From a virus: a stretch of DNA of 63,900 nt. A program made the position numbers and the translations under genes. The DNA lies in IMG/VR virus record IMGVR_UViG_3300022745_000034, positions 1 through 63,900 of that record; one strand, 5' to 3'. The notes under the pieces are model-generated. The model was not told the origin of the DNA and searched no databases. It was given only the letters and a program-made list of their open reading frames with translations. Shown here piece after piece: positions 35,144 through 55,173 of the stretch. The first letter of the stretch is position 1. The number at the start of each line of letters is the position of its first letter.

Positions 35144-35158
35144 TTGAGCCATACTCAA
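35144..35158. promoter_or_regulatory. Exact palindrome, possible left promoter/operator
   Basis: TTGAGCCATACTCAA with 6-bp arms. On the minus strand its TTGAGT can serve as a -35 box, with TAAAAT at 35134-35129 as -10 (18-bp spacer), just in front of the VRR-NUC gene. It marks one edge of the 500-bp divergent intergenic region. Confidence 0.6.
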
Positions 35159-35199
35159 CTGCTGTTTGCCTATCCAGTCTTTTTCGGGCGCATGGTTGA

Positions 35200-35506
35200 T
35201 CGGGGTCCAAATTCCGAAAGTTCCGAGTTCCGGGCAAAGTTCTAGAACACAAAACGGGCTTGCAACCCGCATGGTTGAGCCATTCTTGTCCCAAGTTCCG
35301 AAGTTCCGGCAGTTCCCATTATTTCTATCTAGGTGGCTATGAATTGTGAAATAAGGGTGGGGGTGTCGGAACTCGGGAACTTGGGGGTGTATGGGTATAG
35401 AAAAAAATAAAAAGATATATATAAATCAATAACTTACCTTCATACAGGCTGTGGATAACTTGTTCTGGAATTTCCAGAACTTTCCAGAACTTTCGGAACT
35501 TTGGGT
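35200..35506. other. Candidate replication origin: mirrored repeats, AT-rich tract, DnaA box
   Basis: Non-coding. Left blocks with GTTCCG direct repeats lie at 35212-35233 and 35293-35317; right blocks in inverse orientation (CGGAAC) lie at 35366-35382 and 35462-35502, the last holding three 10-bp phased units such as TTTCCAGAAC. Between them are a nearly pure A/T tract (35399-35436) and TGTGGATAA at 35450-35458, the exact complement of the consensus DnaA box TTATCCACA. A hairpin (CGGG...CCCG) lies near 35255-35270. It resembles an iteron-type phage or plasmid origin; an initiator is not identified. Confidence 0.55.
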
Positions 35507-35551
35507 CTGTTGGCAAAAAAAGACGATTTAACTTAAATATTCATCGCCGCG

Positions 35552-35578
35552 TTGAGCTATTCTCAACTATAATTTAAT
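35552..35578 (+). promoter_or_regulatory. Exact palindrome and putative right-going early promoter
   Basis: TTGAGCTATTCTCAA (35552-35566, 6-bp arms) followed by TATAATTTAAT. TTGAGC with TTTAAT at 35573-35578 has a 15-bp spacer; TATAAT itself (35568-35573) is too close to the same -35. The unit drives or represses the early plus-strand genes starting at 35624. Confidence 0.55.
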
Positions 35579-35623
35579 TACGTCGATTTTGACGGACTGA
35601 ACGAACGATTGAAGGAGCGAAAA

Positions 35624-35959
35624 ATGACCCTCGAAAAACGAATGGAACTTGAGCGCCGCGTAGTGCGCAAGCTGATCCGGGTGGCCAAGGAGCACGGCTG
35701 GACTTGCGTGGCCGTGGACGACGGAGAGGAACGGGTGCGGTGCGATGGCGAGGCCGAAGCCATGGATGCGGTCTTTGCTGTGGATGAGTCGGTCATGCGC
35801 TTCAAGCACGCCGACCACAAGGCAACTCACTGCGCCGTGATCGTCCTGGGCAACGACGGCTGGGACGCGATTGCCGACTGGTCTGTGGGCGATGGCTGGG
35901 CCGATGTGATGGAAGCCATGGACGCCTACACCGACAAGCTGTGCGAGGAAGTGTCCTGA
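35624..35959 (+). CDS. Conserved early phage protein, 111 aa
   Basis: ATG chosen at 35624, nine bases after GAAGGAG; a GAACGAACGA leader repeat precedes it. A basic helical N-terminus is followed by WTCVAVDDGEERVRCDGEAE and an acidic C-terminal part with VIVLGNDGWDAIADWS and a final helix. This family of about 110 residues is common in early regions of proteobacterial phages; function unknown. Confidence 0.6.
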   Translation: MTLEKRMELERRVVRKLIRVAKEHGWTCVAVDDGEERVRCDGEAEAMDAVFAVDESVMRFKHADHKATHCAVIVLGNDGWDAIADWSVGDGWADVMEAMDAYTDKLCEEVS

Positions 35960-35969
35960 CAGCACCAGT

Positions 35970-35992
35970 GTGTGGGTCTGCTGGGCCCACAC
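35970..35992 (+). other. Intergenic hairpin GTGTGGG-N9-CCCACAC
   Basis: Perfect 7-bp stem with a 9-base loop between the first two early genes, not followed by a T tract. It may be a processing or attenuation element or stabilise the upstream mRNA end. Confidence 0.45.
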
Positions 35993-36031
35993 GCGGGGAT
36001 TGTCCCGATACCGAGCGAAGGAACGAACGAA

Positions 36032-36484
36032 ATGAAAACCGTAAACGAAAACCTCCAAGAGCTGACCCGGACCTACGTGCGCGAGGGTCTGCGCCTTTGG
36101 ACACTGGCCAATATCGAGCGCGAATATGGCCTGCTGGCCCGCACTACCCGGCGCCGCTTGGCCCGCCAGGAATGGGTGGCCAGCATTCGGGACTGTGCCG
36201 AGCCTTTGGCGGTTGCTGGGTACTACGGCGACATACCGGCCGGCACGCCGGTTGTGGCTTTATGCAAGTGGGAGCGTGACTGCGATTGCGTGGAGGGCAC
36301 GTCTATGCGTCTGGTCGAGGCGACCGTTGCGGCACTGGATGAGGCCGTGGAGCGCGACTACGACTGGGCCGAGGGTCCGGTGCGCCACTGGATTCAGCGC
36401 CCTTCGGACGCATTCGAGTCCGAATTCCACGACCGCGCCTTGGAAGCCTTCGAGGATGGCCATGCACACGTCATTTACGGCTAA
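36032..36484 (+). CDS. Conserved early phage protein, 150 aa
   Basis: The ATG at 36032 directly follows GAACGAACGAA. The N-terminal 50 residues are helical (TYVREGLRLWTLANIEREYG). The remainder contains WERDCDCVEGTSMRLVEATV, YDWAEGPVRHWIQRPSD, and FHDRALEAFEDGHAHVIY, an acidic/aromatic pattern widespread among phage early genes. Cys residues in CDCV could bind metal, but no partner motif is evident. Function unknown. Confidence 0.6.
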   Translation: MKTVNENLQELTRTYVREGLRLWTLANIEREYGLLARTTRRRLARQEWVASIRDCAEPLAVAGYYGDIPAGTPVVALCKWERDCDCVEGTSMRLVEATVAALDEAVERDYDWAEGPVRHWIQRPSDAFESEFHDRALEAFEDGHAHVIYG

Positions 36485-36494
36485 GGAGGACGGC

Positions 36495-36647
36495 ATGGAC
36501 TACGAACAAGACGATCTGGCGCCCGAGCCGGAAGACTTCGAGGAAACCCGATTCCCCGTGCTGGATATGGCCGAAGCAAAGCGGCTGGCTGCTTGGTTCT
36601 TGGAAGGCGTGCCTAGCCTGGGTGAGTTTGAGGGGGTGGTGGTATGA
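36495..36647 (+). CDS. Small acidic protein, 50 aa
   Basis: The ATG at 36495 has a strong AAGGAGG seven bases upstream. The product is acidic (DYEQDDLAPEPEDFEE) with an amphipathic helix in the second half. Stop and next start overlap as ATGA. No family is recognised; its tight spacing in the operon supports it as real. Confidence 0.6.
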   Translation: MDYEQDDLAPEPEDFEETRFPVLDMAEAKRLAAWFLEGVPSLGEFEGVVV

Positions 36648-36997
36648 GCGCGCACAACCTTGAATGCTGCGTATGTGGAGCAGGTGCAGGCCGGTGGGAG
36701 CAACACTGGAACCGCGACACGGGCTATGGGATCTGCCCATCGTGCGTGGCCGAGCAATCTGGTCGGGAGAGTGAGGACGAAATGCGCGCCCTCTACGGCC
36801 TGCCCGGTGTGAACTATCGCCAGCCCATGGTCATGCTGGCCGGGCGCCGGTTCAAGTGCATGGCCACATTCCAAAACACCGACAACGGCACCAAGGCAGC
36901 CAACGCCTACATGGAGCGCACGCCTGGGGCTGCCGTGCTGCTGGTGGATGACTACATCTATTTGGCACACAAGGACGACAAAGGAGAACCCGTATGA
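36644..36997 (+). CDS. Zinc-finger-like phage protein, 117 aa
   Basis: N-terminal CCVCGAGAGRWEQHWNRDTG then ICPSCV gives a CxxC...CxxC knuckle that probably binds zinc. The remainder, with GVNYRQPMV and FKCMATF, ends in a short strand-rich part (AAVLLVDDYIYLA). Overlaps both neighbours by 4 nt. Proteins with this start are frequent in phages; role unknown. Confidence 0.6.
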   Translation: MSAHNLECCVCGAGAGRWEQHWNRDTGYGICPSCVAEQSGRESEDEMRALYGLPGVNYRQPMVMLAGRRFKCMATFQNTDNGTKAANAYMERTPGAAVLLVDDYIYLAHKDDKGEPV

Positions 36998-37167
36998 CCT
37001 CCCTCCTGAACTTCCTCAAGCCCTACACCGTGGTGGTGTTCTGGGATGGTGACGTGTACCGGCACCGCGCCTGGACGTTTTCCGAGGCGCTGGAGTGGAT
37101 GGCGTGCTACTCGGAGGGGCGGGCCAACGTGTTCAACCGCCGTGGTCAGTGGTTGGCCAGCCGTTGA
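36994..37167 (+). CDS. Small phage protein, 57 aa
   Basis: The start overlaps the preceding stop (ATGA). The product TVVVFWDGDVYRHRAWTFSE then ALEWMACYSE and ANVFNRRGQWLAS has the aromatic and NRRG pattern of a small protein family common in proteobacterial phages. No function is known to me. It is 57 codons, so it can easily be missed. Confidence 0.6.
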   Translation: MTSLLNFLKPYTVVVFWDGDVYRHRAWTFSEALEWMACYSEGRANVFNRRGQWLASR

Positions 37168-37180
37168 TTTGTGCAAGTGA

Positions 37181-37195
37181 GTGAGTTTTTATCAA
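37181..37195. promoter_or_regulatory. Degenerate palindrome (two mismatches)
   Basis: GTGAGTTTTTATCAA in the 42-bp gap before 37210; its T-rich centre matches copies at 44406 and 46414. Weak on its own. Confidence 0.3.
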
Positions 37196-37209
37196 CTAAG
37201 GAGCATTAA

Positions 37210-37473
37210 ATGAGTAAGAAAATAGATACAGGTGGACCGGCGTTCCCATTCGAGTACCACAACAAGACCGGTACCCGTCAGCCGGGATTCTTTGACACCG
37301 GCATTCTGCCCCCGGGGGCAAGCCAGCAGTTCGCGGGGCTTTCGCTGCGCGATTACTTCGCGGCCAAGGCGATGCAGGCGCTGGTTCATGAACAGCACAC
37401 AGCAGAAATGATCACGGTCATGGCGATGACCGCTTATGACTACGCCGACGCCATGCTGGAGGCCCGCCAATGA
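37210..37473 (+). CDS. Conserved phage protein with GGPAFP...LRDYFAAKAM, 87 aa
   Basis: AAGGAG precedes the ATG. The start DTGGPAFPFEYHNKTGT, then GLSLRDYFAAKAMQALVH and YDYADAMLEAR, is a well-known phage protein pattern. It lies in the early operon with a 4-nt overlap to the next gene. Function unknown. Confidence 0.65.
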   Translation: MSKKIDTGGPAFPFEYHNKTGTRQPGFFDTGILPPGASQQFAGLSLRDYFAAKAMQALVHEQHTAEMITVMAMTAYDYADAMLEARQ

Positions 37474-37667
37474 CCGTAGACGAACTGCGCATAAAGCTGG
37501 CCGGTGTGCCAGGGCACTTACCGGTGGTGGTCGAAGACACCTTTGAAGATGAAGCATGCGGCGGTGTCGATACCCAGTACCTGCTTACGCTGGATGCGGA
37601 TCTGTCCGGTGTCCCTCAATGCGGTCGGGCATTCGTGATCGTTCTCGGTGAGGAAGGTGCGGCATGA
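37470..37667 (+). CDS. Small phage protein, 65 aa
   Basis: The ATG overlaps the upstream stop. MTVDELRIKLAGVPGHLPVV, then a Cys/Asp-containing acidic part and GRAFVIVLGE at the end. This short family occurs as an early-gene protein in phages; function unknown. The GTG/ATG overlap pattern to the next gene continues the operon. Confidence 0.55.
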   Translation: MTVDELRIKLAGVPGHLPVVVEDTFEDEACGGVDTQYLLTLDADLSGVPQCGRAFVIVLGEEGAA

Positions 37668-37891
37668 ACCGCGCCGTACTTCTCGACGGCTTGTTTGTCG
37701 TTGGCCGCTTCATCGTGCGAGGCCTCGCCCTGGTGGGGTTCTTCTCCCTGGTGGCCATGGCCAGCTACCTATACCACTCTGGCCAGCCCGCCAAGTTGGT
37801 CCGCGCGGGCGTGTGCATTAACTCAGCCTGCGAGGACTGCCCTATTAAACAAACGCGCTTCAAGCGCCATCAAGGAGTATGCAATGAATGA
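37664..37891 (+). CDS. Small membrane protein with Cys tail, 75 aa
   Basis: One hydrophobic segment (IVRGLALVGFFSLVAMASYL) follows a short N-terminus. A periplasmic or cytoplasmic tail contains CINSACEDCPIKQ, that is Cys residues that may bind metal or form a disulfide. A 4-nt overlap with the previous gene and an overlap with the next 31-aa gene support real translation. Confidence 0.55.
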   Translation: MNRAVLLDGLFVVGRFIVRGLALVGFFSLVAMASYLYHSGQPAKLVRAGVCINSACEDCPIKQTRFKRHQGVCNE

Positions 37892-37979
37892 GGATTGGGA
37901 CTGGCTGCAAGACATGGCCTTTGCTTTTTGGATCATAGTTTTTGTCGTGGCTGCCATAGCAGCGGTCGGCGGTGTTTGA
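37884..37979 (+). CDS. Very small membrane peptide, 31 aa
   Basis: ATG at 37884 with AAGGAG twelve bases before. The product MNEDWDWLQDMAF plus a hydrophobic helix IIVFVVAAIAAVGGV is a single-TM peptide. It ends in TGATG, which couples it to the next gene. Short, but well placed. Confidence 0.5.
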   Translation: MNEDWDWLQDMAFAFWIIVFVVAAIAAVGGV

Positions 37980-38539
37980 TGGATGGTGTGGAAATGATCC
38001 CTGCACACATAACCCGACTAATAACCTTCGCTCAAACCGGGCAACCTGCGGGCTATGCGGCCAGCGACATGATGCGCGCCGACCTTGAGGCGGTTTTGAT
38101 GCCGCCTGAGCGACTGACCAAGGTGGATGTGGAGCCGCCGCCCCCTCCATTCGGCAGTAAGCGCAAGGCGGCAATGGCTGTCTACACGCCTCCGTTCACC
38201 TACAAGTACGGATACATATACGACAGCCAAAACCTGATGGTCGCGGATAAAGGTTGTCTTGGAGAAGATGAACTCGGCGTAAAAGGTGCAGTTGCAGCGC
38301 GGGTGCGTGGTTGGGGTCGGCTTGGGTATTTACCAAACGGAGCAGAGCTTCAAGACGAAATAGGACAGATGATGGCTGATGCGTTAAATCAGCTTTACAG
38401 TGACCCCGCCTCCGCACTCGCAGCACTACGCCAAGAGAATGAAACGATGCGTGAGGTGTTAATGCAAGTTGTGGAAGCGTACCCGCTTGGCCGAGTAGCT
38501 GACGCTGCACGAACATTATTGAAAGTAAACAATGACTGA
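37979..38539 (+). CDS. Unrecognised early phage protein, 186 aa
   Basis: The ATG at 37979 is shared with the TGATG junction. The N-terminal part includes YAASDMMRADLEAVLMPPER, the middle a Pro-rich bit and aromatic YKYGYIYDSQNLMVADK, and the C-terminus a helical ALAALRQENETMREVLMQV. The C-terminal helix overlaps the next gene by 8 bases. No family is assigned; the mosaic of pieces suggests a fusion typical of phage early regions. Confidence 0.45.
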   Translation: MDGVEMIPAHITRLITFAQTGQPAGYAASDMMRADLEAVLMPPERLTKVDVEPPPPPFGSKRKAAMAVYTPPFTYKYGYIYDSQNLMVADKGCLGEDELGVKGAVAARVRGWGRLGYLPNGAELQDEIGQMMADALNQLYSDPASALAALRQENETMREVLMQVVEAYPLGRVADAARTLLKVNND

Positions 38540-38930
38540 CACCTACGACTTCCTGAAAGCACAAAAAGACGCCATCCTTGCAAAGCGAGAAGCAGAGCAA
38601 CATGAGTGGCTGCAAGCTGCGCTAGACGACATCGAAATGTACAAGCGCCAACTCGCTGAAGCACAGGCAGAGAACAAACAGCTTGCCGAATTTGTTGTGG
38701 AAGTCGGTGGGTTCTGGGGCAATACCAAATCAGTGCTGGTCGGGGGAGACTCCCTTGCTGCAACGATTAACAAATGCTTTGAGGGGTATGAAGCTGCGTT
38801 GGCAGAGAACAAGCGACTGCAAACCGCACTAAATGAACTGTGCGCTTGGCGCGATGGCGATGTAGGCGGCCACATGGATGAGCCTCACGCCGCCATGGTT
38901 GCCCGTGCAGCCCTGCAAGCGAAATCCTGA
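38532..38930 (+). CDS. Coiled-coil early phage protein, 132 aa
   Basis: A long Glu/Lys/Ala-rich coiled coil (residues 10-60), then a FVVEVGGFWGN linker and a second helix (GYEAALAENKRLQTAL) with a conserved-looking end (AMVARAALQAKS). This resembles Ead/Ea22-like accessory proteins in early regions, but I cannot assign one firmly. TGATG couples it to the next gene. Confidence 0.5.
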   Translation: MTDTYDFLKAQKDAILAKREAEQHEWLQAALDDIEMYKRQLAEAQAENKQLAEFVVEVGGFWGNTKSVLVGGDSLAATINKCFEGYEAALAENKRLQTALNELCAWRDGDVGGHMDEPHAAMVARAALQAKS

Positions 38931-39352
38931 TGGCCGAAATGAAATTCACCAAGACCGAGGCAAAGAGGAAGATCGACCTGATTCTGAGTCTGTTGCGTGT
39001 TGTGCCCATGCACACACACGACTTGGCCGAGCTTATTCCAATGTCTAGGCGCTGGACACTTACCTATGTCAAACACCTGCACCAGAATCGGCGCATCTAC
39101 ATCCTGCGCTGGGAGAAGCACATAGCCCAAAGGGCCAAGCGCCACGCCGTCCCAGTTTACGCGCCAGGGCGCCGGCCTGACGCACCCAAGCCAGAAGCCG
39201 ACACCGATGAAGTTGTCTACCAACGGGCCTGGAACCGCCTGAAATCTGACCCCGACCGGCACGGGGATCTGCTGGCCAAGCGCAGAGTAAGGCGCCGGCT
39301 TCGCAACCTTCGGCCAGATCCGGCTGCCGCATGGATATTCCCAACAAAATGA
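38930..39352 (+). CDS. Winged-helix-like phage protein, 140 aa
   Basis: Residues 5-60 contain FTKTEAKRKIDLILSLLRV, then HDLAELIPMSRRWTLTYVK and LHQNRRIYILRWEKH, a helix-turn-helix plus wing in appearance, with a very basic C-terminus (AKRRVRRRLRN). It probably binds nucleic acid. The stop overlaps the following gene. Confidence 0.55.
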   Translation: MAEMKFTKTEAKRKIDLILSLLRVVPMHTHDLAELIPMSRRWTLTYVKHLHQNRRIYILRWEKHIAQRAKRHAVPVYAPGRRPDAPKPEADTDEVVYQRAWNRLKSDPDRHGDLLAKRRVRRRLRNLRPDPAAAWIFPTK

Positions 39353-39654
39353 TGTTTTCTAACCTATCTGCTTACTTTACCTGCGCCCAAGTTGCCGAAC
39401 GTGAGGGTCTTAGCCGCCAGTCAATAGCCAGAATGTGCCGCAATGAGGCTATTTTCCCGGTGATGAAGCACGGAGGCCAGTGGCTTATCGACCGTGGTTA
39501 TGTCATTGCCCCCTCGATTGGAACGCCAGGGCGACCGCGAAAGCCAAAGCCAGTGCCAAACAGAGGCCGAGGCAGGCCAAAGGGCGTAAAGAACAGGCGA
39601 CCCTACCCAGTTGGGGTTAAGCGCCCACGGAAGAAAACTACTTCTCAGGTTTGA
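39349..39654 (+). CDS. Excisionase-like HTH protein with AT-hook-like tail, 101 aa
   Basis: The start at 39349 gives an ATGA overlap with the previous stop (an earlier in-frame ATG is at 39331). Residues 5-45 (YFTCAQVAEREGLSRQSI, GGQWLIDRGYVIA) have a MerR/excisionase-type HTH pattern. The C-terminus GRPRKPKPVPNRGRGRPKG has two GRP cores, an AT-hook-like tail. It is probably a DNA-bending regulator. It converges with the minus-strand gene at 39638. Confidence 0.6.
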   Translation: MMFSNLSAYFTCAQVAEREGLSRQSIARMCRNEAIFPVMKHGGQWLIDRGYVIAPSIGTPGRPRKPKPVPNRGRGRPKGVKNRRPYPVGVKRPRKKTTSQV

Positions 39655-39859
39655 CTTCAATTTTGTTTGCACCATGAAGCACAAAAGCGGCTCCGGTCCA
39701 CCTATCTAACAAGTATGCCCCGCCCCACCTATCAGATCCATTGGAAACGGTAGCCATGTCCCAGCGGAATAGCCATGCAAAAAAGATCGCGCAAGCAATC
39801 AACAATGGAATGATCTGTTTCATTGTGATTTTGAGTAAGTTGAAATTGCGGATCATATT
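39638..39859 (-). CDS. Small membrane protein, about 73 aa
   Basis: Minus-strand gene overlapping the end of the plus-strand HTH gene by 17 bases. It holds one hydrophobic segment (KQIIPLLIACAIFFAWLF) and then AYLLDRWTGAAFVLHGANK; the D-R-W-T-G pattern is frequent in small bacterial and phage membrane proteins. The start is uncertain: ATG 39859, ATG 39823 (MKQ), or a longer frame up to 39991 that would overlap the 57-aa plus gene. I list the intermediate one. Confidence 0.5.
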   Translation of the reverse strand, partial: NMIRNFNLLKITMKQIIPLLIACAIFFAWLFRWDMATVSNGSDRWGGAYLLDRWTGAAFVLHGANKIEVKPEK

Positions 39860-39917
39860 CTCTGTCTCAAAAGGGACAAAAACAATATCAACGCAGTAAA
39901 GAGAGGAAATCGCGAAT

Positions 39918-40091
39918 ATGCCCAATAACAAGAATCCGCTTATCGGAGAAACGACCAAGGACACAATAGAAAACGTATCGGAGGCACTCAACGCACTCCT
40001 TGTCTTAATGTCAGTAAGCCACAGCGCAATATGCAGGTTAATTGAACCACTGGCCCATGCGCTAGAACATGCTGCAAATCAGGATGAATAA
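39918..40091 (+). CDS. Small phage protein, 57 aa
   Basis: AGAGGA lies about ten bases before the ATG at 39918. The product (MPNNKNPLIGETTKDTIENV, then a helix with LNALLVLMSVSHSAICRL) is a short amphipathic, mostly helical protein. It ends right at a strong terminator. It is opposite the upstream extension of the minus-strand membrane gene, so only one of the two extensions can be fully real. Confidence 0.45.
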   Translation: MPNNKNPLIGETTKDTIENVSEALNALLVLMSVSHSAICRLIEPLAHALEHAANQDE

Positions 40092-40092
40092 A

Positions 40093-40114
40093 AAAGGGGC
40101 CGATTGGCCCCTTT
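40093..40114. terminator. Bidirectional terminator between converging operons
   Basis: AAAGGGGCC-GATT-GGCCCCTTT, a 9-bp stem with a 4-base loop; A- and T-rich flanks on both sides allow termination of the plus-strand early operon and of the minus-strand replication operon (stop at 40116). Confidence 0.92.
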
Positions 40115-40115
40115 C

Positions 40116-42530
40116 TCATTCGTCCATAGGGAAGTACACATTCCCCGCATAGTTCCACATCGTCCCAGGCGACACCCCTATCACATTGGCTTCGGCGGCA
40201 GTCTCCATAAGCTCCTTGAACTGACGCGCCGACATGGCCATGAGCTTGAGCAATTTTGAGTGCGGCATGCCACCCTGGGCGCAGATGCTGCCAAACCGGG
40301 CGTCCTTCGCATACTTCTTAGCAGCCTTGATGTACTTGATTGCCTTCTTGATGTCGGCATCGGTCTGGCTGTCAACGCGCTCACGCCGCACCGAGCGTAT
40401 CAGTTCAATGTCGTAGTGACGCACGTACTGGATGGCCCATTCGAGGTGGGACGGAAGCACCTTGCGTGCATGCGGGTCGGATGCCTTGGCCACGATCATG
40501 GCCAGACGCATGGACTTCTCCATGGTTCGGCCCAAGATCACGTCCAGCCCCTCGCCTTCTGCGGCCTCCTTCTCATCATTGAGTTCGGATTCGAGCGCCA
40601 GCATCATCGGCATGCACGACTCATCGAACTCAAGTGCGATGATGGTGGCGGGCATTTCGGCTGGGTTCACGTCGGCCAGATTACCCTGCACAGCCCCAGA
40701 CGTGTGCACCGCCTTGCACCACTCCACAATCCGGGGTGGCGGCTCCGTTCGGTCCACAAAGCGGGTCAACTGGCGCGGCTGCTTGGATTCGACCACAATG
40801 CACCGGCCCAAGAAACCGTCCTGCACCAAGTCGGTTGTCAATGCCGCGTAGAACGTGCCGGGGGTTGTGGCGCCCAGCAACGAAATGGCCGGGTTGTGCA
40901 CCACGCGCTCGATGTTGGTGGTCTGGCTCTTGGAGAGCGTCATCTTTGAATAGGTCGGCGGGCGCATCACGCCATCGAGCCGCCCGAATGCCTCAATCAG
41001 CTTGTCAATGGCCGCCTCAGAATGGGCCTGACCGTTGGCCCGGGACATCTTGAGCAACTTGCCTAGCTCGTCGATGGTGGCCAAGTGGGAAGGACTATCG
41101 AGCAACGCGCTAAACACCGCGCCGGCCGACGTGTAGCCCGAGCCGCCAATGAGCTTGCCCAGGTCAGCCGCCGTGAGGATCTTCTCGCAGCAGCCTTGCG
41201 GGTGCTCCTTACCTTCGGTGGACTTGGCCACCATGACCATATAGAGGCTGGTGAAGTTGCCGTACTGGCTGCGATACGTGCGCCCCATGATGACCGAGCC
41301 CAGTGCAATGGCAGCTGCCACGCTCAATTCGGGCTGTTGCTTAGGCGCCGTAGCCGTGATCCAGCGCGAAATGTCGCCCAGGATGCCGGGTGGATTGGCA
41401 ATGAATGCCGGAATGGCAGGAGCCGGGTCAATGCTTGTTTGTGGCGGGAGCATCACCGGAGCAACCGGTGCGGCAGGCTTGAGCCAGGGCAGTGTTACCG
41501 GTGGTGTTGGGAGTGGTGCTACTGGGGGGGTTAGCTGAACCGGCTTTGCTCCACCGACTGTCAGTGTGATTGGAGCCGGTTCATTGAGCGCCAAGCATGA
41601 GCGCAAAACTTCTGCGGCCTTCTGGAACGTCAGCCCATTGGCGAACATGATGATGTCGATTGGCGTCATGCCATACCCGCCACCCCAATCGCGAATGCCC
41701 TGCGGGTTGATGCCAACATTCGGATTCTTGACGCCGCGCCACGTCGCAATGCACCGATACCCATCGTTATGGGGTTTGGCCGTGGGAATGAGCTTTGTCA
41801 CCCAGTCATCAAGGCGGTTGAGTGCTGCCTTATTCAAGTCGCGGAAGTATTCAGCCTGGATAGACAGATCGGTATTGATCTTGTCGCCATCTTCTTTTGG
41901 CGTGTGCGTCTTCTTCTGGTGCTTGATGTCGGGCTCTGTCTGGTACGGCTCCAGCACGCGCGCCACCTGATCCAGAAAGTCGGCCGGCAATTTCGGCAGT
42001 TCATTGGTGGTCAGAATCGAATCAAGTGATTCCTCAGTGATCCACACATAGCTGCACCCGCTTGGGTGTGTCGTTGGCGGGATCACCGTCTGACGACCTT
42101 CGGCCAGGACATCGAGCACTCGGGCCCCACCCACATCAAAGCTGCATGACCGCTCGCCGTTGTACTGGTAGAAACGGGTCCAGCCCTTCTCCCCTTTCTT
42201 GGCTATGGGGCTAAACGGAATGATGGCCTGGAGCGCGTCATTGCCGCCGTTTGGGATGTCATAGTCCTTGTCCAAGCACGTCAGGTTCGACACCTCGCCA
42301 AGCACGACGCCAATGCCCGCATCGGGCCATGTGTACCAGTGCTCTAACTCAATCTCGGTAGGCAAACGCTTTGCAAAGCGCGTCCAGTCTCCCATGCCGC
42401 GCCAGCCGTGTTCTTGTGACCATGCTCCGGGCTTTTTGCTGCCTGGAGCGATTGGCACCACGCTGATACCGCGCTCTATGAACTTCCATGCGAACTGCTG
42501 GAATACTGATTCCGTCTTTACTTCTGTCAT
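40116..42530 (-). CDS. Primase-helicase (Prim-Pol-like + DUF3987-like), 804 aa
   Basis: The N-terminal 280 residues have AWKFIERGISVVPIAPGSKK, GIGVVLGEVSNLTCLDKD and DVLAEGRQTVIPPTTHPSG, the pattern of bifunctional primase-polymerase domains. After a Pro/Ala/Val-rich linker comes a DUF3987-like helicase: KSTEGKEHP (Walker-A-like, about 440), LATIDELGKLL (Walker B, about 487), ISLLGATTPGTFYAAL and a C-terminal helical part. This would be the replicative primase-helicase. It is the last gene of the Cro-led left operon. Confidence 0.8.
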   Translation of the reverse strand: MTEVKTESVFQQFAWKFIERGISVVPIAPGSKKPGAWSQEHGWRGMGDWTRFAKRLPTEIELEHWYTWPDAGIGVVLGEVSNLTCLDKDYDIPNGGNDALQAIIPFSPIAKKGEKGWTRFYQYNGERSCSFDVGGARVLDVLAEGRQTVIPPTTHPSGCSYVWITEESLDSILTTNELPKLPADFLDQVARVLEPYQTEPDIKHQKKTHTPKEDGDKINTDLSIQAEYFRDLNKAALNRLDDWVTKLIPTAKPHNDGYRCIATWRGVKNPNVGINPQGIRDWGGGYGMTPIDIIMFANGLTFQKAAEVLRSCLALNEPAPITLTVGGAKPVQLTPPVAPLPTPPVTLPWLKPAAPVAPVMLPPQTSIDPAPAIPAFIANPPGILGDISRWITATAPKQQPELSVAAAIALGSVIMGRTYRSQYGNFTSLYMVMVAKSTEGKEHPQGCCEKILTAADLGKLIGGSGYTSAGAVFSALLDSPSHLATIDELGKLLKMSRANGQAHSEAAIDKLIEAFGRLDGVMRPPTYSKMTLSKSQTTNIERVVHNPAISLLGATTPGTFYAALTTDLVQDGFLGRCIVVESKQPRQLTRFVDRTEPPPRIVEWCKAVHTSGAVQGNLADVNPAEMPATIIALEFDESCMPMMLALESELNDEKEAAEGEGLDVILGRTMEKSMRLAMIVAKASDPHARKVLPSHLEWAIQYVRHYDIELIRSVRRERVDSQTDADIKKAIKYIKAAKKYAKDARFGSICAQGGMPHSKLLKLMAMSARQFKELMETAAEANVIGVSPGTMWNYAGNVYFPMDE

Positions 42531-42541
42531 GCAACCTACTT

Positions 42542-42691
42542 TTATTTTTCACTGCAATTGCAGTTGCGCCCCTGATTGCAGTTGCCACTGCACTCGCTAC
42601 CCTTCTCGGACGGATGTCTGGCCATGTGAGCAAGGCTAATCAGCACCACCCCAGCAAGCACACCTATTCCCAGCCCGATCAATAACCACAT
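42542..42691 (-). CDS. Small membrane protein with CxGNCNQGRxCxC tail, 49 aa
   Basis: Begins at an ATG (42691) with a GGAGG seven bases upstream, placed at the end of the previous gene. One N-terminal membrane helix (WLLIGLGIGVLAGVVLISLA) is followed by a hydrophilic tail ending CSGNCNQGRNCNCSEK. The Cys spacing (C-x3-C, C-x-C) suggests a metal site or disulfides; this tail is found in tiny phage proteins of betaproteobacteria. It lies opposite a long shadow frame. Confidence 0.65.
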   Translation of the reverse strand: MWLLIGLGIGVLAGVVLISLAHMARHPSEKGSECSGNCNQGRNCNCSEK

Positions 42692-42693
42692 GG

Positions 42694-43176
42694 CTACGCC
42701 TCCGCACGCTCGATCACCCGAGCACGTTTTGATTTGATTTCGATGCGCACCAGTTCGATGGCCGACTCAAGTTCGGCTATGGTGCATTGGTTTAACTGCT
42801 CGTCATGGATGCCAAGCGCAAGATTGACGGCCTGCATTTCTGGCCCGGTGAATACGAAACGGTTTCCTCGCTCTACCCCCCGGCGCGTCATGTGCAACAG
42901 TGCGTCATGCGCCTGCCTTATCTCGTCAGCCCAATCCTTGCCCAGATCCGCACGCACTCGGTAAAGAGCTTCGGTGATATTGAGCGCGGCGATCAGAATG
43001 TCGATGTGATCGCGCGTTCCCCTGCCCTGCACAACCTCAGTCATTGCCGAATGGTTCTTGGAAACCAACAGCATGTGCTCGTCCTTGACGCTGCGCATTG
43101 GCTTGAGCCCAGTAACTACCCAGTTCACCGCGTCCAACCTCACCCCCTTGGGACGATACTTAGAGCGTTTGCGCAT
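42694..43176 (-). CDS. Conserved phage replication-region protein, 160 aa
   Basis: The start at 43176 is preferred, because AAGGA lies 5 bases before it (in-frame ATG codons at 43182 and upstream also exist). It begins MRKRSKYRPKGVRLDAVNWV, then HSAMTEVVQGRGTRDHIDIL, a DEIRQAHDALLHMTRRG segment and EMQAVNLALGIHDEQLNQ. This is a conserved family beside early replication genes in beta- and gammaproteobacterial phages; the role is unknown. It follows a 57-aa gene with which it overlaps by 17 bases. Confidence 0.65.
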   Translation of the reverse strand: MRKRSKYRPKGVRLDAVNWVVTGLKPMRSVKDEHMLLVSKNHSAMTEVVQGRGTRDHIDILIAALNITEALYRVRADLGKDWADEIRQAHDALLHMTRRGVERGNRFVFTGPEMQAVNLALGIHDEQLNQCTIAELESAIELVRIEIKSKRARVIERAEA

Positions 43177-43335: not shown

Positions 43336-43566
43336 CTACTCCTTGTGCTGAACCATGTCGGGGCGGACTACGGCCAGGGGGAGGCCTGCCAGGATGGCTA
43401 TCTTTTGGGCATGCGCAGAAGGAATGCGACGGTTCCACTTGGTGACGGTCTGGACCGAGATACCCAACTTGCGCGCTACTGCACCCTTGCCACCAGCCAT
43501 TCCAAGCACCCCTTCAACGGTGAACCCGACCGGTTCATCCGATCTAAGTGATTGATCTTTTGTCAT
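43336..43566 (-). CDS. Cro/YdaS-like transcriptional regulator, 76 aa
   Basis: Residues 18-65 are a helix-turn-helix: GMAGGKGAVARKLGISVQTV then TKWNRRIPSAHAQKIA. A C-terminal extension with GLPLAVVRPDMVQ is as in YdaS/Cro proteins. It is divergent from the CI-like gene at 43689, the standard Cro position. A putative promoter is TTGCTC (43624-43619) with TAAAGT (43601-43596), 17-bp spacer, within the inverted-repeat region. Confidence 0.75.
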   Translation of the reverse strand: MTKDQSLRSDEPVGFTVEGVLGMAGGKGAVARKLGISVQTVTKWNRRIPSAHAQKIAILAGLPLAVVRPDMVQHKE

Positions 43567-43688
43567 TTGTACCCATATGCGTTGAGAAAAAGTTAACTTT
43601 ATCTTAAATCAACAACACGAGCAAGGTTGTTGATTTCTCGATCTGGGTGTAATGTCAGAAGTTAGCGAACGAACGAACGAGGTGCCGA
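43567..43688. promoter_or_regulatory. CI/Cro-like switch region with 11-bp inverted repeat
   Basis: AAATCAACAAC (43606-43616) and GTTGTTGATTT (43626-43636) form a perfect inverted repeat with a 9-base spacer. It overlaps the -35 of the Cro promoter and TTGTTG (43627-43632), a possible -35 for CI with TGTAAT (43648-43653) as -10 at 15 bp. A two-mismatch TTGAG-N5-CTCAA copy lies at 43582-43596, over the -10 of the Cro promoter. (GAAC)n precedes the CI start. These are inferred operators. Confidence 0.55.
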
Positions 43689-44312
43689 ATGACAGTCCTA
43701 TCCCAGCGCCTGCGCGCAGCCCGCAACGCCATCACGCCAGCCATATCTCAACGCGACGTGGCCAAGCGCTTGAACCTGTCTCCCAGCGCCATCAACCTGT
43801 GGGAGTCTGGCAAGACGGAGCCCAGCGCCACGGACCTCGCGGAGCTTGCCAAGTGGTTTAACGTCAGCACCGATTGGCTACTTGGCGTCGAGTCAACGAT
43901 GCCCGTTCAAAAGCGATTCAAGACTGACCCGCCACTGTGGACCGTGCCGGTTGTCACTCCTATGTCGCTGGTACGCTGGCACTGGGAAGCTGCGACGGAA
44001 TTGCTTCAAACAGAAGTAGCATACCCACCACAAACGGCGGCCGCGATACTGGTGTCGAGCGACGCCTTGGCCAGCACCTGCCCCACCGGTTGCTATGCCG
44101 TAGTTTCCAAGGGTCATGATGTCGAGCCTGGGCAAATCGTCATGGCTTCTATCGGCAAAGCAGCCGATCCAGTCCTACGCAAATACGTGCGCGAAGGCAG
44201 CGCCGGATTGCTTCTGGCCGACGATATGCGCTACCCCTCCTACAAGATGGAAACCGGCGTGAAGATCATTGGGCGCGTGACAGAAATCACAGTTCGCCGC
44301 GTCCTGCACTAA
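43689..44312 (+). CDS. CI-like repressor with degenerate S24 domain, 207 aa
   Basis: Residues 4-65 are an XRE-type HTH (ISQRDVAKRLNLSPSAINLW and TDLAELAKWFNVSTDWLLG). The C-terminal half has LexA/S24-like strands (CYAVVSKGHDVEPGQIVMA, VKIIGRVTEI). At the usual GDSM nucleophile position the sequence reads SSDA (123-126), and the Lys region reads VLRKY (162-166) where the active enzyme has a V/L-K-R. So it seems to keep dimerisation and lose or alter autocleavage. It is the candidate repressor of lysogeny. It is preceded by a GAACGAACGAACGA leader. Confidence 0.75.
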   Translation: MTVLSQRLRAARNAITPAISQRDVAKRLNLSPSAINLWESGKTEPSATDLAELAKWFNVSTDWLLGVESTMPVQKRFKTDPPLWTVPVVTPMSLVRWHWEAATELLQTEVAYPPQTAAAILVSSDALASTCPTGCYAVVSKGHDVEPGQIVMASIGKAADPVLRKYVREGSAGLLLADDMRYPSYKMETGVKIIGRVTEITVRRVLH

Positions 44313-44367: not shown

Positions 44368-44395
44368 TTGAGTTTTACTCAATTTTCGATATAGT
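44368..44395 (+). promoter_or_regulatory. Early right promoter with exact palindrome
   Basis: TTGAGTTTTACTCAA (44368-44382) overlaps a good sigma-70-like promoter: -35 TTGAGT (44368-44373), 16-bp spacer, -10 TATAGT (44390-44395). A second one-mismatch copy (TTTAGTTTTTCTCAA, 44406-44420) lies just downstream of the start point, and AAGGAG then leads into the first gene. This looks like an operator directly controlling the recombination operon. Confidence 0.65.
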
Positions 44396-44405: not shown

Positions 44406-44420
44406 TTTAGTTTTTCTCAA
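44406..44420. promoter_or_regulatory. One-mismatch palindrome downstream of the early promoter
   Basis: TTTAGTTTTTCTCAA. 38 bases (centre to centre) from the exact copy at 44368, so the two sites lie on roughly the same face of the helix after about 3.6 turns. Cooperative repressor binding is possible. Confidence 0.4.
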
Positions 44421-46410: not shown

Positions 46411-46506
46411 GAATCGAGTTTTTCTAAACCGCTTGACGCGGGCGGTATATCCGCGTCACCTTAATCGAGTTTTACTCAACTTTTCACTATTGAAGGAACG
46501 AAACAA
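46411..46506 (+). promoter_or_regulatory. Gap with two palindrome copies flanking a hairpin
   Basis: TCGAGTTTTTCTAAA (46414-46428) and TCGAGTTTTACTCAA (46465-46479) lie either side of a perfect 7-bp hairpin GACGCGG...CCGCGTC (46435-46441/46451-46457). They are exactly 51 bp apart. A possible promoter, operator or mRNA processing unit before the DUF669 gene, which has a GAACGAA leader and GAAGGAACG ribosome-binding site. Confidence 0.5.
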
Positions 46507-47064: not shown

Positions 47065-47071
47065 TTGAAAC

Positions 47072-47484: not shown

Positions 47485-47509
47485 GTCTTAACCAACTTGA
47501 AATACCATC

Positions 47510-48301
47510 ATGACAACTGAAAACCAAACCGTCGCAGAACTAGCCGTTGCTGCCCATGGGCTCCAATTTGTTGACGGCGTGCCATACGTCGTTGCTCCAG
47601 AAGGCTATGCCGTCGAAAACCTCGAACGCATGCTGGAGACTCCCATGCGCAAGCGTGGCAAGGTCCACATGAATGACGCCGCCAGCTTCAATGCCTATGT
47701 GAATGCAGAGGCAACCCCGGCCACTCGCTTGTACGGGCAATTGAATCCTCCCGCTTTCTGCGCAGTGTTCAATGACCATGCCAGCGAACCAGGGTGGGGT
47801 GACTATGGCGTGTCCTATGACTGCCCGCTGTCTATCGAGTGGAAGACATGGACGGCAAACAGCGGCAAGACGATGACGCAAGAAGCGTTTGCGCAGTTCA
47901 TCGAAAACAACCTTCCCGACATTGCCATGCCGCCCGCTGCCGACATGCTGGAAATCTCCCGCAGCCTGGAGGCAAAGAAGAAAGTCAACTTTGCCAGCGG
48001 TGTGCGCTTGTCCAACGGCCAGAACGAACTGGTGTACGAGGAACAGGTAAGCGGCACAGCGGCCAAGGGCAAGCTCAATGTCCCAGAGGCATTCACCATC
48101 GGCATTCCCGTGCTCGAAGGTGGCGAACGCTATGCCGTGACAGCGCGCCTGCGCTATCGCATCCAAGAAGGCGGCAAGTTGTCGATGTGGTTTGAACTGG
48201 TACGCCCGCACAAGATCGTCGAAGACGCTGCAAGCGCAGTGTGGAAGGCCATCGAGGAAGGCACTGGCAAGCGCATCTTCAATGGCCGTACATCCCGCTA
48301 A
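47510..48301 (+). CDS. DUF2303 family protein, 263 aa
   Basis: PYVVAPEGYAVENLERMLE, then RKRGKVHMNDAASFNAYVN and MTQEAFAQFIENNLPDI, SRSLEAKKKVNFASGVRLS and SMWFELVRPHKIVEDA are the DUF2303 pattern known from phages next to Sak4/DUF669. The molecular role is unknown; it is associated with phage recombination functions by position. Full family length. Confidence 0.75.
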   Translation: MTTENQTVAELAVAAHGLQFVDGVPYVVAPEGYAVENLERMLETPMRKRGKVHMNDAASFNAYVNAEATPATRLYGQLNPPAFCAVFNDHASEPGWGDYGVSYDCPLSIEWKTWTANSGKTMTQEAFAQFIENNLPDIAMPPAADMLEISRSLEAKKKVNFASGVRLSNGQNELVYEEQVSGTAAKGKLNVPEAFTIGIPVLEGGERYAVTARLRYRIQEGGKLSMWFELVRPHKIVEDAASAVWKAIEEGTGKRIFNGRTSR

Positions 48302-48326
48302 CCCCCCAACCACCAAAGGAACAACC

Positions 48327-48587
48327 ATGAACGCACCTGTTCAAGCATTCAACCCCGCAGAAGTCCCGATCAATTTCACCCTCAACTTCAACCAAGTGAA
48401 CTTACTTCTGTCCGGTATGGCAGAGCTACCGCGCAAGCAAACGGACGGCTTCTATGAGCAGTTCCGCGCCCATGCTCTGCAAACACTGCAAGTTGCCGAG
48501 AACGCCCACAACAAAGCCCAGGAGAAGGCCGCAGCGGATGAGGCTGCGCGCAATGCTCCACCAGAAGTAGTCGGAGGTACGGACTGA
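48327..48587 (+). CDS. Small phage protein, 86 aa
   Basis: The start is at 48327, following AAAGGAAC. Strand then helix (FTLNFNQVNLLLSGMAELP, ADGFYEQFRAHALQ-like helix, KAQEKAAADEAARN). It resembles small proteins that follow DUF2303 in phages. TGATG couples it to the next gene. The longer frame from 48192 overlaps the DUF2303 end and is unlikely. Confidence 0.55.
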   Translation: MNAPVQAFNPAEVPINFTLNFNQVNLLLSGMAELPRKQTDGFYEQFRAHALQTLQVAENAHNKAQEKAAADEAARNAPPEVVGGTD

Positions 48588-48781
48588 TGACCACGCGCAT
48601 CTATGTGGTGACCGACACCGAAACAACGAAGCAGCGCCTTATCCGCGCTGCTAATCAGGCCCAGGCGTTGCGAGCCGCAACAACAACCCGCTTCACCGTT
48701 GATGTGGCCAGTCAGGATGCCCTGGTCGGTTTGCTTTCTTCCGGTGTTTCAGTCGAAGAAGCGAAGGAAGACAAGCAGTGA
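48587..48781 (+). CDS. Small phage protein, 64 aa
   Basis: RIYVVTDTETTKQRLIRAAN then TRFTVDVASQDALVGLLSSG is a conserved small phage family, probably a ferredoxin-like fold. The start is coupled through TGATG. The stop overlaps the GTG start of the following Tad2-like gene (GTGA). Function unknown. Confidence 0.6.
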   Translation: MTTRIYVVTDTETTKQRLIRAANQAQALRAATTTRFTVDVASQDALVGLLSSGVSVEEAKEDKQ

Positions 48782-49257
48782 AAACCTACATCGGCACAAA
48801 GATTGTGTTGGCCGAACCCTTAACACGGGCGGCCTACAACGAGTTTCGCGGGTGGGTTCTGCCCGCTGACGAGAACGGCGACGACGAAGGCTACTTGGTC
48901 GAGTACACAGACGGCGGCAAGCCCAACGTGCCCGGGCGCAGTGGCTACGTTAGCTGGTCCCCAAAGGAACAGTTCGACAACGCATATCGCGCCTATGGCG
49001 ATATGACCTTCGGGCTGGCGCTGGAAGCTATGAAGAAGGGCTACTTCGCCCAGCGCGCAGGCTGGAACGGCAAGGGCTTGAAGCTGGGATTAGTGGGCAA
49101 AGGCGGGGCATTTGAAATAAGCATTGGCGAAGTCAGCACGCTTCCATACATCGTGATGGTCTATCCGATGGATTCGGCCAACACTCCTGGAGCGATTGTC
49201 CCGTGGCTGGCAAGCCAGACGGACATGCTGGCCGAAGATTGGAGGGTTTTGGTATGA
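48778..49257 (+). CDS. DUF2829 (Tad2-like) protein, candidate anti-Thoeris, 159 aa
   Basis: Starts at a GTG (48778) overlapping the previous stop. The C-terminal 90 residues MTFGLALEAMKKGYFAQRAG, then WNGKGLKLGLVG and TPGAIVPWLASQTDMLAEDW match DUF2829, the domain of Tad2 proteins that sequester Thoeris signalling molecules. The first 65 residues (YIGTKIVLAEPLTRAAYNEF, GYLVEYTDGGKPNVPG, SGYVSWSPKEQF) belong to another small phage family, so this is a fusion or an extended version. Anti-defence action is inferred from the family. Confidence 0.65.
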   Translation: MKTYIGTKIVLAEPLTRAAYNEFRGWVLPADENGDDEGYLVEYTDGGKPNVPGRSGYVSWSPKEQFDNAYRAYGDMTFGLALEAMKKGYFAQRAGWNGKGLKLGLVGKGGAFEISIGEVSTLPYIVMVYPMDSANTPGAIVPWLASQTDMLAEDWRVLV

Positions 49258-49640
49258 CGACCGACGCACAAATCGAGTCCGAGATTGTGGCCAAGGGCAA
49301 AACCGCACCGCGTGTGACACCCAAACAGATCGACGCATTGCTGGCACGGGTGGAATACAAGTTTGAGTATCACCACACCAGCACCTTCTGCCATGCGTTC
49401 CTTGATGGCGAGTTCTACCTTGCTACCGGCCATTCTGCCTGCGTTTCTTTGGCTAATTACGACAAGGAAATTGGCGACCGCATAGCTGTGAGCGATGCAG
49501 CGGCCAAGGCGGTGAAGCAGTTGTGGCTCTTGGAGGGCTATGTGCTGCGCACCAAGCTGGCCGAGCCCGTAGACGACGACTTCCCACTTGGCAAAGCCTG
49601 CGACTTGTCGGGTGAAGGTACTTGCGAGAGTTGCCAGTAA
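49254..49640 (+). CDS. Gp49-like phage protein (N4 Gp49 family), 128 aa
   Basis: The start at 49254 is preferred; an earlier frame start at 49203 lies inside the Tad2-like gene. It begins MTTDAQIESEIVAKGKTAPR then VTPKQIDALLARVEYKFEY and ACVSLANYDKEIGDRIAV, the known Gp49/Sf6-gp66-like pattern. Function is not known. Followed by the structured gap 49641-49734. Confidence 0.7.
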   Translation: MTTDAQIESEIVAKGKTAPRVTPKQIDALLARVEYKFEYHHTSTFCHAFLDGEFYLATGHSACVSLANYDKEIGDRIAVSDAAAKAVKQLWLLEGYVLRTKLAEPVDDDFPLGKACDLSGEGTCESCQ

Positions 49641-49734
49641 GGCACCGGCATCCTGACCGGTGATCGCCCCAACGTCGGGTGCCTATGACGTGACAGCCTG
49701 GAGAGACAGGCACCTAACACTGAAGGACTGATTT
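49641..49734 (+). other. Structured leader with mutually exclusive hairpins
   Basis: CACCGG (49643-49648) pairs CCGGTG (49657-49662). GGCACC (49641-49646) can pair GGTGCC (49678-49683), and GGTGCCT (49678-49684) can also pair AGGCACC (49708-49714). The middle segment is shared, so two structures exclude each other, as in attenuators or riboswitches. No known class is recognised. GAAGGA and an ATG follow. Confidence 0.5.
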
Positions 49735-50010
49735 ATGGATTACGAAGAACAGGTGCGTGCAATGGTCAAGCACGCAACTATTGAACAACCGGATTTCAAA
49801 AGTAACTTGCGTGAGCTTGGAAAGCTGATTCGTGCGCTTGGACGAGGTATTGCGCTAGTTGCACTTGGGTTGCCAAAAGAGTCACAGCCTATATTCGTGC
49901 GCGAGGTTAGCACCGCAATCATGATTGAGATTTGCAACTTCAAGCGCGAGACGCTCACCACAGAAGACTTCTTGCGCAACCACTATCACCCGGAGAAGTT
50001 CAATGGCTGA
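49735..50010 (+). CDS. Phage protein before PD-(D/E)XK nuclease, 91 aa
   Basis: Sequence VRAMVKHATIEQPDFKSNLR, then LIRALGRGIALVALGLPKES and REVSTAIMIEICNFKRETL, a helical protein without a recognised family. GAAGGA upstream. Its stop overlaps the nuclease start by 8 bases, so it may be its partner. Confidence 0.55.
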   Translation: MDYEEQVRAMVKHATIEQPDFKSNLRELGKLIRALGRGIALVALGLPKESQPIFVREVSTAIMIEICNFKRETLTTEDFLRNHYHPEKFNG

Positions 50011-53748: not shown

Positions 53749-54263
53749 ACAAGCCATCAATCGACCGACTTCACGAGGTCTTTGAGTACAGCAACGGCGC
53801 TTTGATCTGGAAGGTGAAGCCAAGTCCGATGGCCCACAGGTCGAAGGTCGGTACCGAAGCTGGCAGGACACAAGCGCACAAGTATGACGACATCCAGTTG
53901 GATGGATGCAGGTTAAAAGCGCATCACATCGTCTGGGCAATGCACAAGGGCGAATACCCGTCAATGCAGGTTGACCACATCAACCGAAACAAGATGGACA
54001 ACAGGATTGAAAACTTGCGTCTTGCAACGCCAACAGACAACGCAGCCAACTGCTCAAGCGTCAAGAACACGACATCACGTTACCTTGGAGTGTCATGGAA
54101 GGCAGCCAACAAGGCATGGGTAGCGCAAATCAGCAAGGGCTACAAGCGCAAGCACCTTGGCCTTTTCAGTACAGAAGATGAAGCTGCACTGGCCTACAAC
54201 AATGCAGCCATTGAGCTGCACGGCGAATTTGCAAACTTGAATAACGTAGGAAGTGCAGCATGA
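53745..54263 (+). CDS. HNH endonuclease with AP2-like domain, 172 aa
   Basis: An N-terminal HNH unit: DGCRLKAHHIVWAMHKGEYP, then VDHINRNKMDNRIENLRLA, with His-Asn-His-type residues. The C-terminal SRYLGVSWKAANKAWVAQIS then GLFSTEDEAALAYNNAAIEL is an AP2-like DNA-binding domain. This HNH-AP2 organisation is that of phage homing-type endonucleases. It fits tightly in the operon (ATGA at both ends), with somewhat lower GC than its neighbours, so it is probably a mobile addition that kept coupling. Confidence 0.8.
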   Translation: MNKPSIDRLHEVFEYSNGALIWKVKPSPMAHRSKVGTEAGRTQAHKYDDIQLDGCRLKAHHIVWAMHKGEYPSMQVDHINRNKMDNRIENLRLATPTDNAANCSSVKNTTSRYLGVSWKAANKAWVAQISKGYKRKHLGLFSTEDEAALAYNNAAIELHGEFANLNNVGSAA

Positions 54264-54520
54264 AACCCATCCAATCAGGCGACCGCGCCATCATCATCGC
54301 CGGAGCCCTTGGCGACAAAGGGCCGAACGTCGGCAAGACCGTCACCGTTGGCACACTGCGCGGCGAGCATTCCCAGCACGGGCGTATCTGGCGCGTGCAT
54401 GGCGAAGGCCTTGTGACTGAATACGGAGCCACTGGGGGCAGCGTTGACTGCGCCCAGAGCTGGCTGCAAAAGATCGAACCGCCGCCCGTGCGCGCCAAAG
54501 AGAAGGAGGCCCAAGCATGA
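54260..54520 (+). CDS. Small phage protein, 86 aa
   Basis: ATGA overlaps on both sides. MKPIQSGDRAIIIAGALGDK, then GPNVGKTVTVGTL and RIWRVHGEGLVTEYGATG, a small SH3-like barrel in appearance. Unrecognised function; similar proteins follow helicases in phage operons. Confidence 0.5.
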   Translation: MKPIQSGDRAIIIAGALGDKGPNVGKTVTVGTLRGEHSQHGRIWRVHGEGLVTEYGATGGSVDCAQSWLQKIEPPPVRAKEKEAQA

Positions 54521-54720
54521 GCCGCGCCTACATTGAGGTCCGTATCAACATCGCCCGCCGTGAAGTCGAGTATTGGCAGAACCTGCTGCGTGACAAGTCG
54601 TGCAACGACTGCCAGAACTTCCAGCAAAACGGCTGCAAGTTGGCCAACGGAATCACCCCACCACCCGAAGTCCAGAAGACCGGCTGCGATAGCTGGGACT
54701 GGGACTGCATCCCATTTTGA
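54517..54720 (+). CDS. Small Cys-rich phage protein, 67 aa
   Basis: CNDCQNFQQNGCKLANGITP, then PPPEVQKTGCDSWDWDCIPF: four to five Cys in CxxC...C...C spacing suggest a zinc-binding or redox site. N-terminal helix (IEVRINIARREVEYWQ). The family is common beside HNH or helicase genes in phages. The function is unknown. Confidence 0.6.
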   Translation: MSRAYIEVRINIARREVEYWQNLLRDKSCNDCQNFQQNGCKLANGITPPPEVQKTGCDSWDWDCIPF

Positions 54721-54729
54721 GGCAACCAC

Positions 54730-54942
54730 ATGCGAACAGACTTCATGCTCCTGGCCATCTACAACAAGCCGCGCCTGTCATTCGATCAGGTGTGCGAGGC
54801 CATAGGGGTGGCCAAGCAGACCGGCTACAACCTTCGCGCCCGGGGGGAGTTCCCGGTTCCCCTGGCTGGCAACCCACTTACCGCTGACATACGGGATGTG
54901 GCTGCGCACCTTGACACCATGCGCCAGCCAACCGCCGCCTGA
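54730..54942 (+). CDS. PrtN/excisionase-like small HTH protein, 70 aa
   Basis: LLAIYNKPRLSFDQVCEAIG, then VAKQTGYNLRARGEFPVPLA and ADIRDVAAHLDTMRQ fit the pyocin activator (PrtN-like) family, small HTH proteins that serve as activators or excisionases. Located directly before the integrase, it is the best candidate for Xis; that is inferred from position. Confidence 0.65.
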   Translation: MRTDFMLLAIYNKPRLSFDQVCEAIGVAKQTGYNLRARGEFPVPLAGNPLTADIRDVAAHLDTMRQPTAA

Positions 54943-55173
54943 CGTTGAGTTTTTCTTTGCCCGGAATTTGCACCAAAATGCCCGCAAACCGCGTGGTTAC
55001 GGGCTTTCAGGTCCAATCCATCATGGGGGCAATAGACATCCTCCATTGAGAATTGCTCAATGGTTTTTGACTTTTCCCCTCTGCCGTCGCCGCTTGATTT
55101 TTACTTAACATTACTTGATACTACCCATGTTTTCTAACTCCAGTGCACCAAATTTGCACCAGAAAGGACTTAC
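54943..55173 (+). promoter_or_regulatory. Integrase upstream region, promoter and possible arm-site region
   Basis: A 231-bp gap. GTTGAGTTTTTCTTTG (54944-54959) resembles half of the recurrent palindrome. The exact copy lies at 55046-55060. TTGATT (55094-55099) with GATACT (55117-55122, 17 bp) is a plausible promoter, and AGAAAGGAC at 55160-55168 precedes the integrase ATG. Recombination arm or excision sites may lie here but I see no clear repeats. Confidence 0.45.
55046..55060. promoter_or_regulatory. Exact palindrome before integrase
   Basis: TTGAGAATTGCTCAA with the longest arms of the set, 8 bp (CCATTGAG/CTCAATGG). It lies about 34 bases upstream of the integrase promoter. It may control integrase or act in transcription readthrough from the early operon. 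Confidence 0.65.

Follow-up and report, generated by a model that had tools for sequence, protein, structure and literature searches.

Gene content of the phage genome

The window analysed here is a 63.9-kb virus record (63,900 nucleotides) from an uncultured temperate phage, with recognisable genes for a portal, terminase, capsid, internal virion protein, Sak4, SSB, Cas4-like nuclease, helicase, primase, integrase, CI-like repressor and Cro-like protein. The portal is related to those of Pseudomonas, Vibrio and Stx-converting podovirus-like phages (~38%) and shows 42% identity to that of Achromobacter phage CF418P1. No substantial near match to the window was found in the phage DNA collection. 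The only near DNA match of the region 35000-50000 to isolate phages is a 46-bp segment (37345-37390), with ~93% identity to Pseudomonas aeruginosa phage PACT201 and to three other phages. Both contig ends lie in giant ORFs (56402-63898 and 1-6018, minus strand; 2498 and 2005 codons), which taken together correspond to one giant tail-type gene (12-14 kb) in each of two relatives (G004 and G007; related phages are given here by our labels). A small error at the junction aside, the contig probably represents an almost complete genome in permuted form. The protein encoded at 48778-49257 scores 72 bits, against a cut-off of 25, for the Pfam Thoeris anti-defence 2-like domain.

The CI-like repressor (207 aa; 43689..44312, plus strand) matches a PHROG of transcriptional repressors (E 7e-21). 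It joins an N-terminal HTH (Pfam HTH_3, 48.9 bits) to a C-terminal Peptidase_S24 domain (35.4 bits), both above the cut-off, and thus has the domain order of the P22-C2/lambda-CI type. P22 C2 was the best match in a PDB search with the CI HTH. The divergent gene at 43336..43566 (minus strand) encodes a small Cro/YdaS-like HTH protein, which is assigned to a PHROG regulator and has P22_Cro and YdaS Pfam matches just under the cut-off. Among the isolate phages we found no close CI, the best matches being below 30% identity; considering also that no substantial DNA match was found, this phage has no characterised relative. No close CI was found in the genome contigs either, and the profile search gave distant HTH matches alone, mostly from Firmicutes.

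Enrichment and location of the palindrome

An initial annotation of this DNA, made from the sequence alone, had listed seven exact copies of the palindrome TTGAG-N5-CTCAA and proposed a palindrome search as a check. All seven are present (2172, 16779, 19567, 35144, 35552, 44368 and 55046), and the chance expectation given there, ~0.06, became 0.05 for the 63.9-kb window when we recomputed it with dinucleotide shuffles. The observed number is ~140 times this expectation, and none of 100 dinucleotide shuffles gave seven copies. In a window-wide scan of every 5-mer palindrome (spacers 0-12), TTGAG-N5-CTCAA ranked first in enrichment. Six of the seven copies are non-coding, as had been claimed; the exception (2172..2186) lies within a giant tail-gene ORF and is probably a chance match. 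The copy at 44368 falls within a mechanically called ORF (TTG at 44328) and was counted as non-coding, given an alternative ATG start with a good Shine-Dalgarno sequence (aaggagcg...ATG) at 44443.

The reported one-mismatch copies at 18572, 34047, 44406 and 46465 also fall in gaps. With up to two mismatches allowed, the window holds 39 matches against 27 ± 5 by chance, and the two-mismatch class is barely in excess. We therefore accepted only those two-mismatch copies that have positional support in relatives; by this measure 43582, 46414 and 12206 were retained from the initial annotation, and 37181 was dropped. Outside the immunity region, seven sites with at most one mismatch are in gaps and one is in coding DNA, which is 20 times larger (Fisher 4e-9), and permuted half-sites occur on average 0.07 times in the same gaps. 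We consider this network of predicted operators real.

Predicted operators at the immunity region and other switches

Palindromic predicted operators lie between and beside the divergent cI and cro genes and over promoters, as in the P22-C2/lambda-CI type. The cro-cI gap contains one with two mismatches (43582..43596), which is exact in L008 and L135-L138. Downstream of cI, the exact site at 44368..44382 provides the -35 box (TTGAGT) of an early rightward promoter, with 16 bp between it and the -10 box TATAGT (44390-44395). A predicted second operator of this promoter (44406..44420; one mismatch) lies 38 bp downstream of the 44368 site. The exact site at 35144..35158 provides the -35 box of a leftward promoter on the minus strand (TTGAGT-18-TAAAAT), which precedes a VRR-NUC gene and then the lysis/late genes. 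In the relatives, a -10 box is found at an offset of 22-24 from the site start in 25 of 46 cI-downstream sites, a set that includes second operators where no -10 is expected, and in 11 of the 23 at the leftward promoter; triples of control offsets gave 0-3. As predicted from these sequences, TTGAG doubles as the -35 box at both 44368 and 35144, and the correctly spaced -10 is conserved in relatives. A CI dimer would contact each TTGAG half-site with one of its recognition helices. Since the -35 box is formed by the half-site at the 44368/44406 promoter and at the 35144 promoter, CI binding would exclude RNA polymerase there.

Two predicted operators lie in the gap between the Sak4 and SSB genes. 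The first (46414..46428) has two mismatches and is exact at the matching place in L008 and L113, and the second, upstream of the SSB gene (46465..46479), has one; an SSB-gap site with at most two mismatches is kept in 10 of the 12 relatives having an SSB gene. Upstream of the integrase gene, an exact site (55046..55060) is accompanied by a predicted second operator 48 bp away (55094..55108, TTGATTTTTACTTAA, two mismatches), which had been missed in the initial annotation and is found at the same position in G008. A further predicted operator with one mismatch (34047..34061) is 9 bp upstream of the gene at 33538-34038; we saw no counterpart of this site in the relatives. The leftward operon includes a gene with a Peptidase M15 domain (33101-33571), probably an endolysin gene. 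The palindromes had been said to precede a lysis unit, and the 34047 site does precede the gene directly upstream of this endolysin-like gene; the lysis link is partial.

The 5-bp stem and 5-base loop had also been likened to boxB-type RNA hairpins, and several sites do fold better than shuffles. However, any palindrome folds, the loops vary, and only 1 of 42 distinct two-mismatch sites flanking cI or SSB carries a compensatory change, which is about the chance level. In addition, the 44368 and 35144 sites, being -35 boxes, lie upstream of the transcript. The lack of compensation and the -35 overlap therefore favour a DNA operator, and of the two original proposals only the operator network stands, borne out by CI linkage, position and the -35/-10 arrangement. 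We rejected hairpins of the boxB/nut type for antitermination as very improbable, despite the folding of isolated hairpins.

The motif travels with the CI family

Each of the 33 other distinct CI loci compared, which reach down to ~50% CI identity, has the motif beside cI with at most two mismatches. L008, with a CI of 81% identity, has sites at matching places: in the cro-cI gap, at two positions downstream of cI and at two before SSB. The exact site is absent from sister phages that have the same virion genes and no detected CI relative (G012, G013, G016-G020, G022 and G023). One-mismatch sites in those sister phages are at about the level of a reversed-pattern control; the relatives without a window-type CI are also more distant overall, which weakens this comparison as a sign of CI linkage. 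A resemblance to FNR boxes (TTGAT-N4-ATCAA) raises the possibility of a host regulator, for example an FNR/ANR-type factor. The spacer is 5 rather than 4, and the sites flank cI and follow the phage CI; we rejected a host regulator on this linkage, leaving it only a minimal probability.

Paired sites downstream of cI are mostly spaced by 27-28 or 38-39 bp. These two spacings are one helical turn apart, which would suit cooperative binding. The operators are probably common to CI and the divergent Cro-like protein, and at some sites the protein bound could be Cro, which we count against a CI-only reading. G002 has a CI of 51% identity with a changed recognition helix (PGAVSLWE) and carries TTTAG-N5-CTCA(T/C) at the corresponding places. 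A sharp co-change of helix and operator was rejected, as L170 (PGAVCLWE) keeps TTGAG, and the G002 case is at most suggestive. G012, with its unrelated CI-like protein, has AATAG-N5-CTATT near its repressor genes (42804, 44304 and 44329), a palindrome that fits the 5-N5-5 geometry on three sites.

Replaced catalytic residues in the CI family

We aligned the CI family with DE3 C2. The catalytic Ser of the S24 domain (GDSM-type) is replaced by Ala in 11 of 12 CI homologues, and the Lys position is Arg in the family. G014 is the single CI homologue that retains the Ser. The S24 domain of CI is apparently catalytically dead, both Ser and Lys being lost. RecA-stimulated cleavage calls for a Ser-Lys dyad and an Ala-Gly cleavage site; the CI of the window has neither the dyad nor the Ala-Gly site, and RecA-type self-cleavage is therefore unlikely. 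This suggests prophage induction by a non-SOS route, and induction through an antirepressor or Cro is more plausible.

A putative replication origin between two predicted operators

A putative replication origin (35160..35550) comprises a DnaA box, an AT-rich stretch and the GTTCC-type repeats GTTCCGAA and TTTCCAGAACT. The exact DnaA box (35450-35458) is the only one in the window, a count that by itself is not significant (0.34 expected). The gap is enclosed by the 35144 operator and another exact predicted operator (35552..35566), which lies rightward of the putative origin and adjoins a TATAAT at 35568. Operators flank the equivalent gap on both sides in G004, G005, G006, G008, L023, L026, L029 and L051, and the equivalent gap contains an exact DnaA box in G003, G008, L014 and L037. 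The combination of these features suggests a replication origin. As the putative origin lies between operators, CI may control replication directly.

Dispersed inverted repeats close to a putative origin and to immunity genes could also be partition centromere sites like those of N15. However, the phage has an integrase, and the sites coincide with promoters and go with the CI family. Neither ParA nor ParB was found among the window proteins scanned, a set that excludes some small ORFs, and we rejected partition sites on this ground, considering them extremely improbable.

Sites within the late operons

Three predicted operators lie among the late genes with no promoter. One is exact and directly follows the major-capsid stop codon (19567..19581), another exact one (16779..16793) separates two late genes and precedes a GTG start by 11 bp, and the third (18572..18586; one mismatch) is 22 bp upstream of the virion gene at 17912-18550. 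The post-capsid site, 1 bp past the stop codon, recurs in G003, G008, L037 and L039, and it has the form TCGAG-N5-CTCGA in L024 and L026-L029. The site before w15467 recurs in L024 and L037, and that before w17912 in G003 and L037. A weaker, operator-like site with two mismatches (12206..12220) lies over the start codon (12207) of the internal virion protein gene, w10240; it recurs in five relatives (G003, G005, G007, G009 and G010) and coincides partly with a possible Shine-Dalgarno sequence and the start codon. No convincing -10 at the correct spacing was found in the late-site classes, with 3 weak matches among 26. In phages without the post-capsid site, the capsid stop codon is often directly followed by a terminator-like hairpin; the post-capsid operator therefore sits between the stop codon and the hairpin.

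These features leave room for two systems, in which CI/Cro operators would serve the immunity region, SSB, leftward promoter and integrase, while the late palindromes would be sites of another protein or function as RNA, for instance in transcript processing or weak post-capsid termination. This would fit the absence of a -10 from the late sites, their patchy occurrence, their position at gene ends and their spacers, which are mixed instead of A/T. In several relatives the post-capsid site is also followed by a terminator-like hairpin, and the symmetric TCGAG/CTCGA variants are equally what one would expect of a conserved RNA stem. On the other side, the late sites share the ten conserved bases and the spacing, and a weight matrix derived from other phages, with 78 distinct sites that flank cI or lie in the SSB gap, picks up the late gap sites of the window (Fisher 8e-10 at a cut of 12). 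They are also missing in phages without a window-type CI. In a permutation test (p 0.009), the deviations in late sites were closer to the immunity operators of their own phage than to those of others, a weak match that is suggestive only, as it comes from 26 letters at hand-picked sites in eight related genomes. We consider two separate systems unlikely.

In the reading that we prefer, with CI acting at the late sites too, these sites resemble mycobacteriophage stoperators, though they are symmetric and probably bound by a P22-C2-like dimer. The promoterless sites at 16779, 18572, 19567 and 12206 would be roadblocks to leaky transcription. The post-capsid site is absent from the CI-bearing G004, G005, G006 and G010, and in G007, which also has CI, the late gaps hold no site at one mismatch; this patchiness across CI-bearing relatives is the main weakness of the stoperator-like part.

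The predicted dispersed operator network and known repressor systems

Taken across the genome, the palindromes are very probably operators of the phage's own CI-like repressor, which would silence early, late and replication functions. The SSB-gap, pre-integrase and origin-flanking sites would bring replication, recombination and integration under further control. With sites at the main switches, near the likely origin and, unusually, at places among the virion genes that lack a promoter, a single protein could silence the prophage at many places simultaneously. A fuller version is more tentative, and we hold it to be possible but somewhat doubtful: a dimeric lambda/P22-type CI would roadblock the virion operon, including at the capsid stop/terminator site, and repress the origin through the flanking operators, and its dead protease would entail non-SOS induction.

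The P22 C2/lambda CI system shares the P22-C2-like HTH, the divergent cI/cro genes and the palindromic operators over -35 boxes, and lambda operators have the same 5-N5-5 geometry. In contrast to the two operator clusters of those phages, the operators here are genome-wide, and the S24 catalytic residues are replaced. This is apparently a P22-C2/lambda-like repressor system that has spread over the genome and lost its protease function. Immunity groups would be predictable by sequence alone across a large family of uncultured podovirus-like phages, and the apparently protease-dead repressor across the family points to an induction route not yet known.

The initial annotation had named P1 C1 operators and L5 stoperators as analogues, and the likeness holds in function and fails in site type. 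The L5/Bxb1 stoperators are 20-30 genome-wide repressor sites, mostly away from promoters, that block elongation; each is an asymmetric sequence of 13-14 bp that has the orientation of transcription and binds a repressor monomer (PMC6550527). The window likewise has predicted repressor sites inside operons and away from promoters, whereas its sites are palindromic and fewer, and the elongation block proposed here is by analogy. In P1, lytic functions, replication among them, are controlled by one main repressor, C1, through 22 dispersed operators, each a 17-bp asymmetric sequence, ATTGCTCTAATAAATTT (PMC8546580); the window site is 15 bp and symmetric. Because the sites of both systems are asymmetric, we regard P1 C1 and L5 as functional analogues only, and the HTH of CI is closest to P22 C2. 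Promoterless repressor sites within operons have so far been best documented for monomeric repressors of the mycobacteriophage type, with asymmetric sites. If symmetric sites of a P22-C2-like repressor are indeed fixed, without promoters, in virion operons, this would suggest that the stoperator strategy arose more than once. Our literature searches on Bcep22-type and phiC31 operators yielded nothing useful. The SPbeta element SPBRE, a 15-bp intergenic repeat, was predicted in silico and later shown to be bound by the master repressor MrpR (PMC10516654). It resembles the window sites as a 15-bp element repeated in gaps, and differs in its repressor, MrpR having a tyrosine-recombinase fold and the window protein an HTH/S24 architecture.
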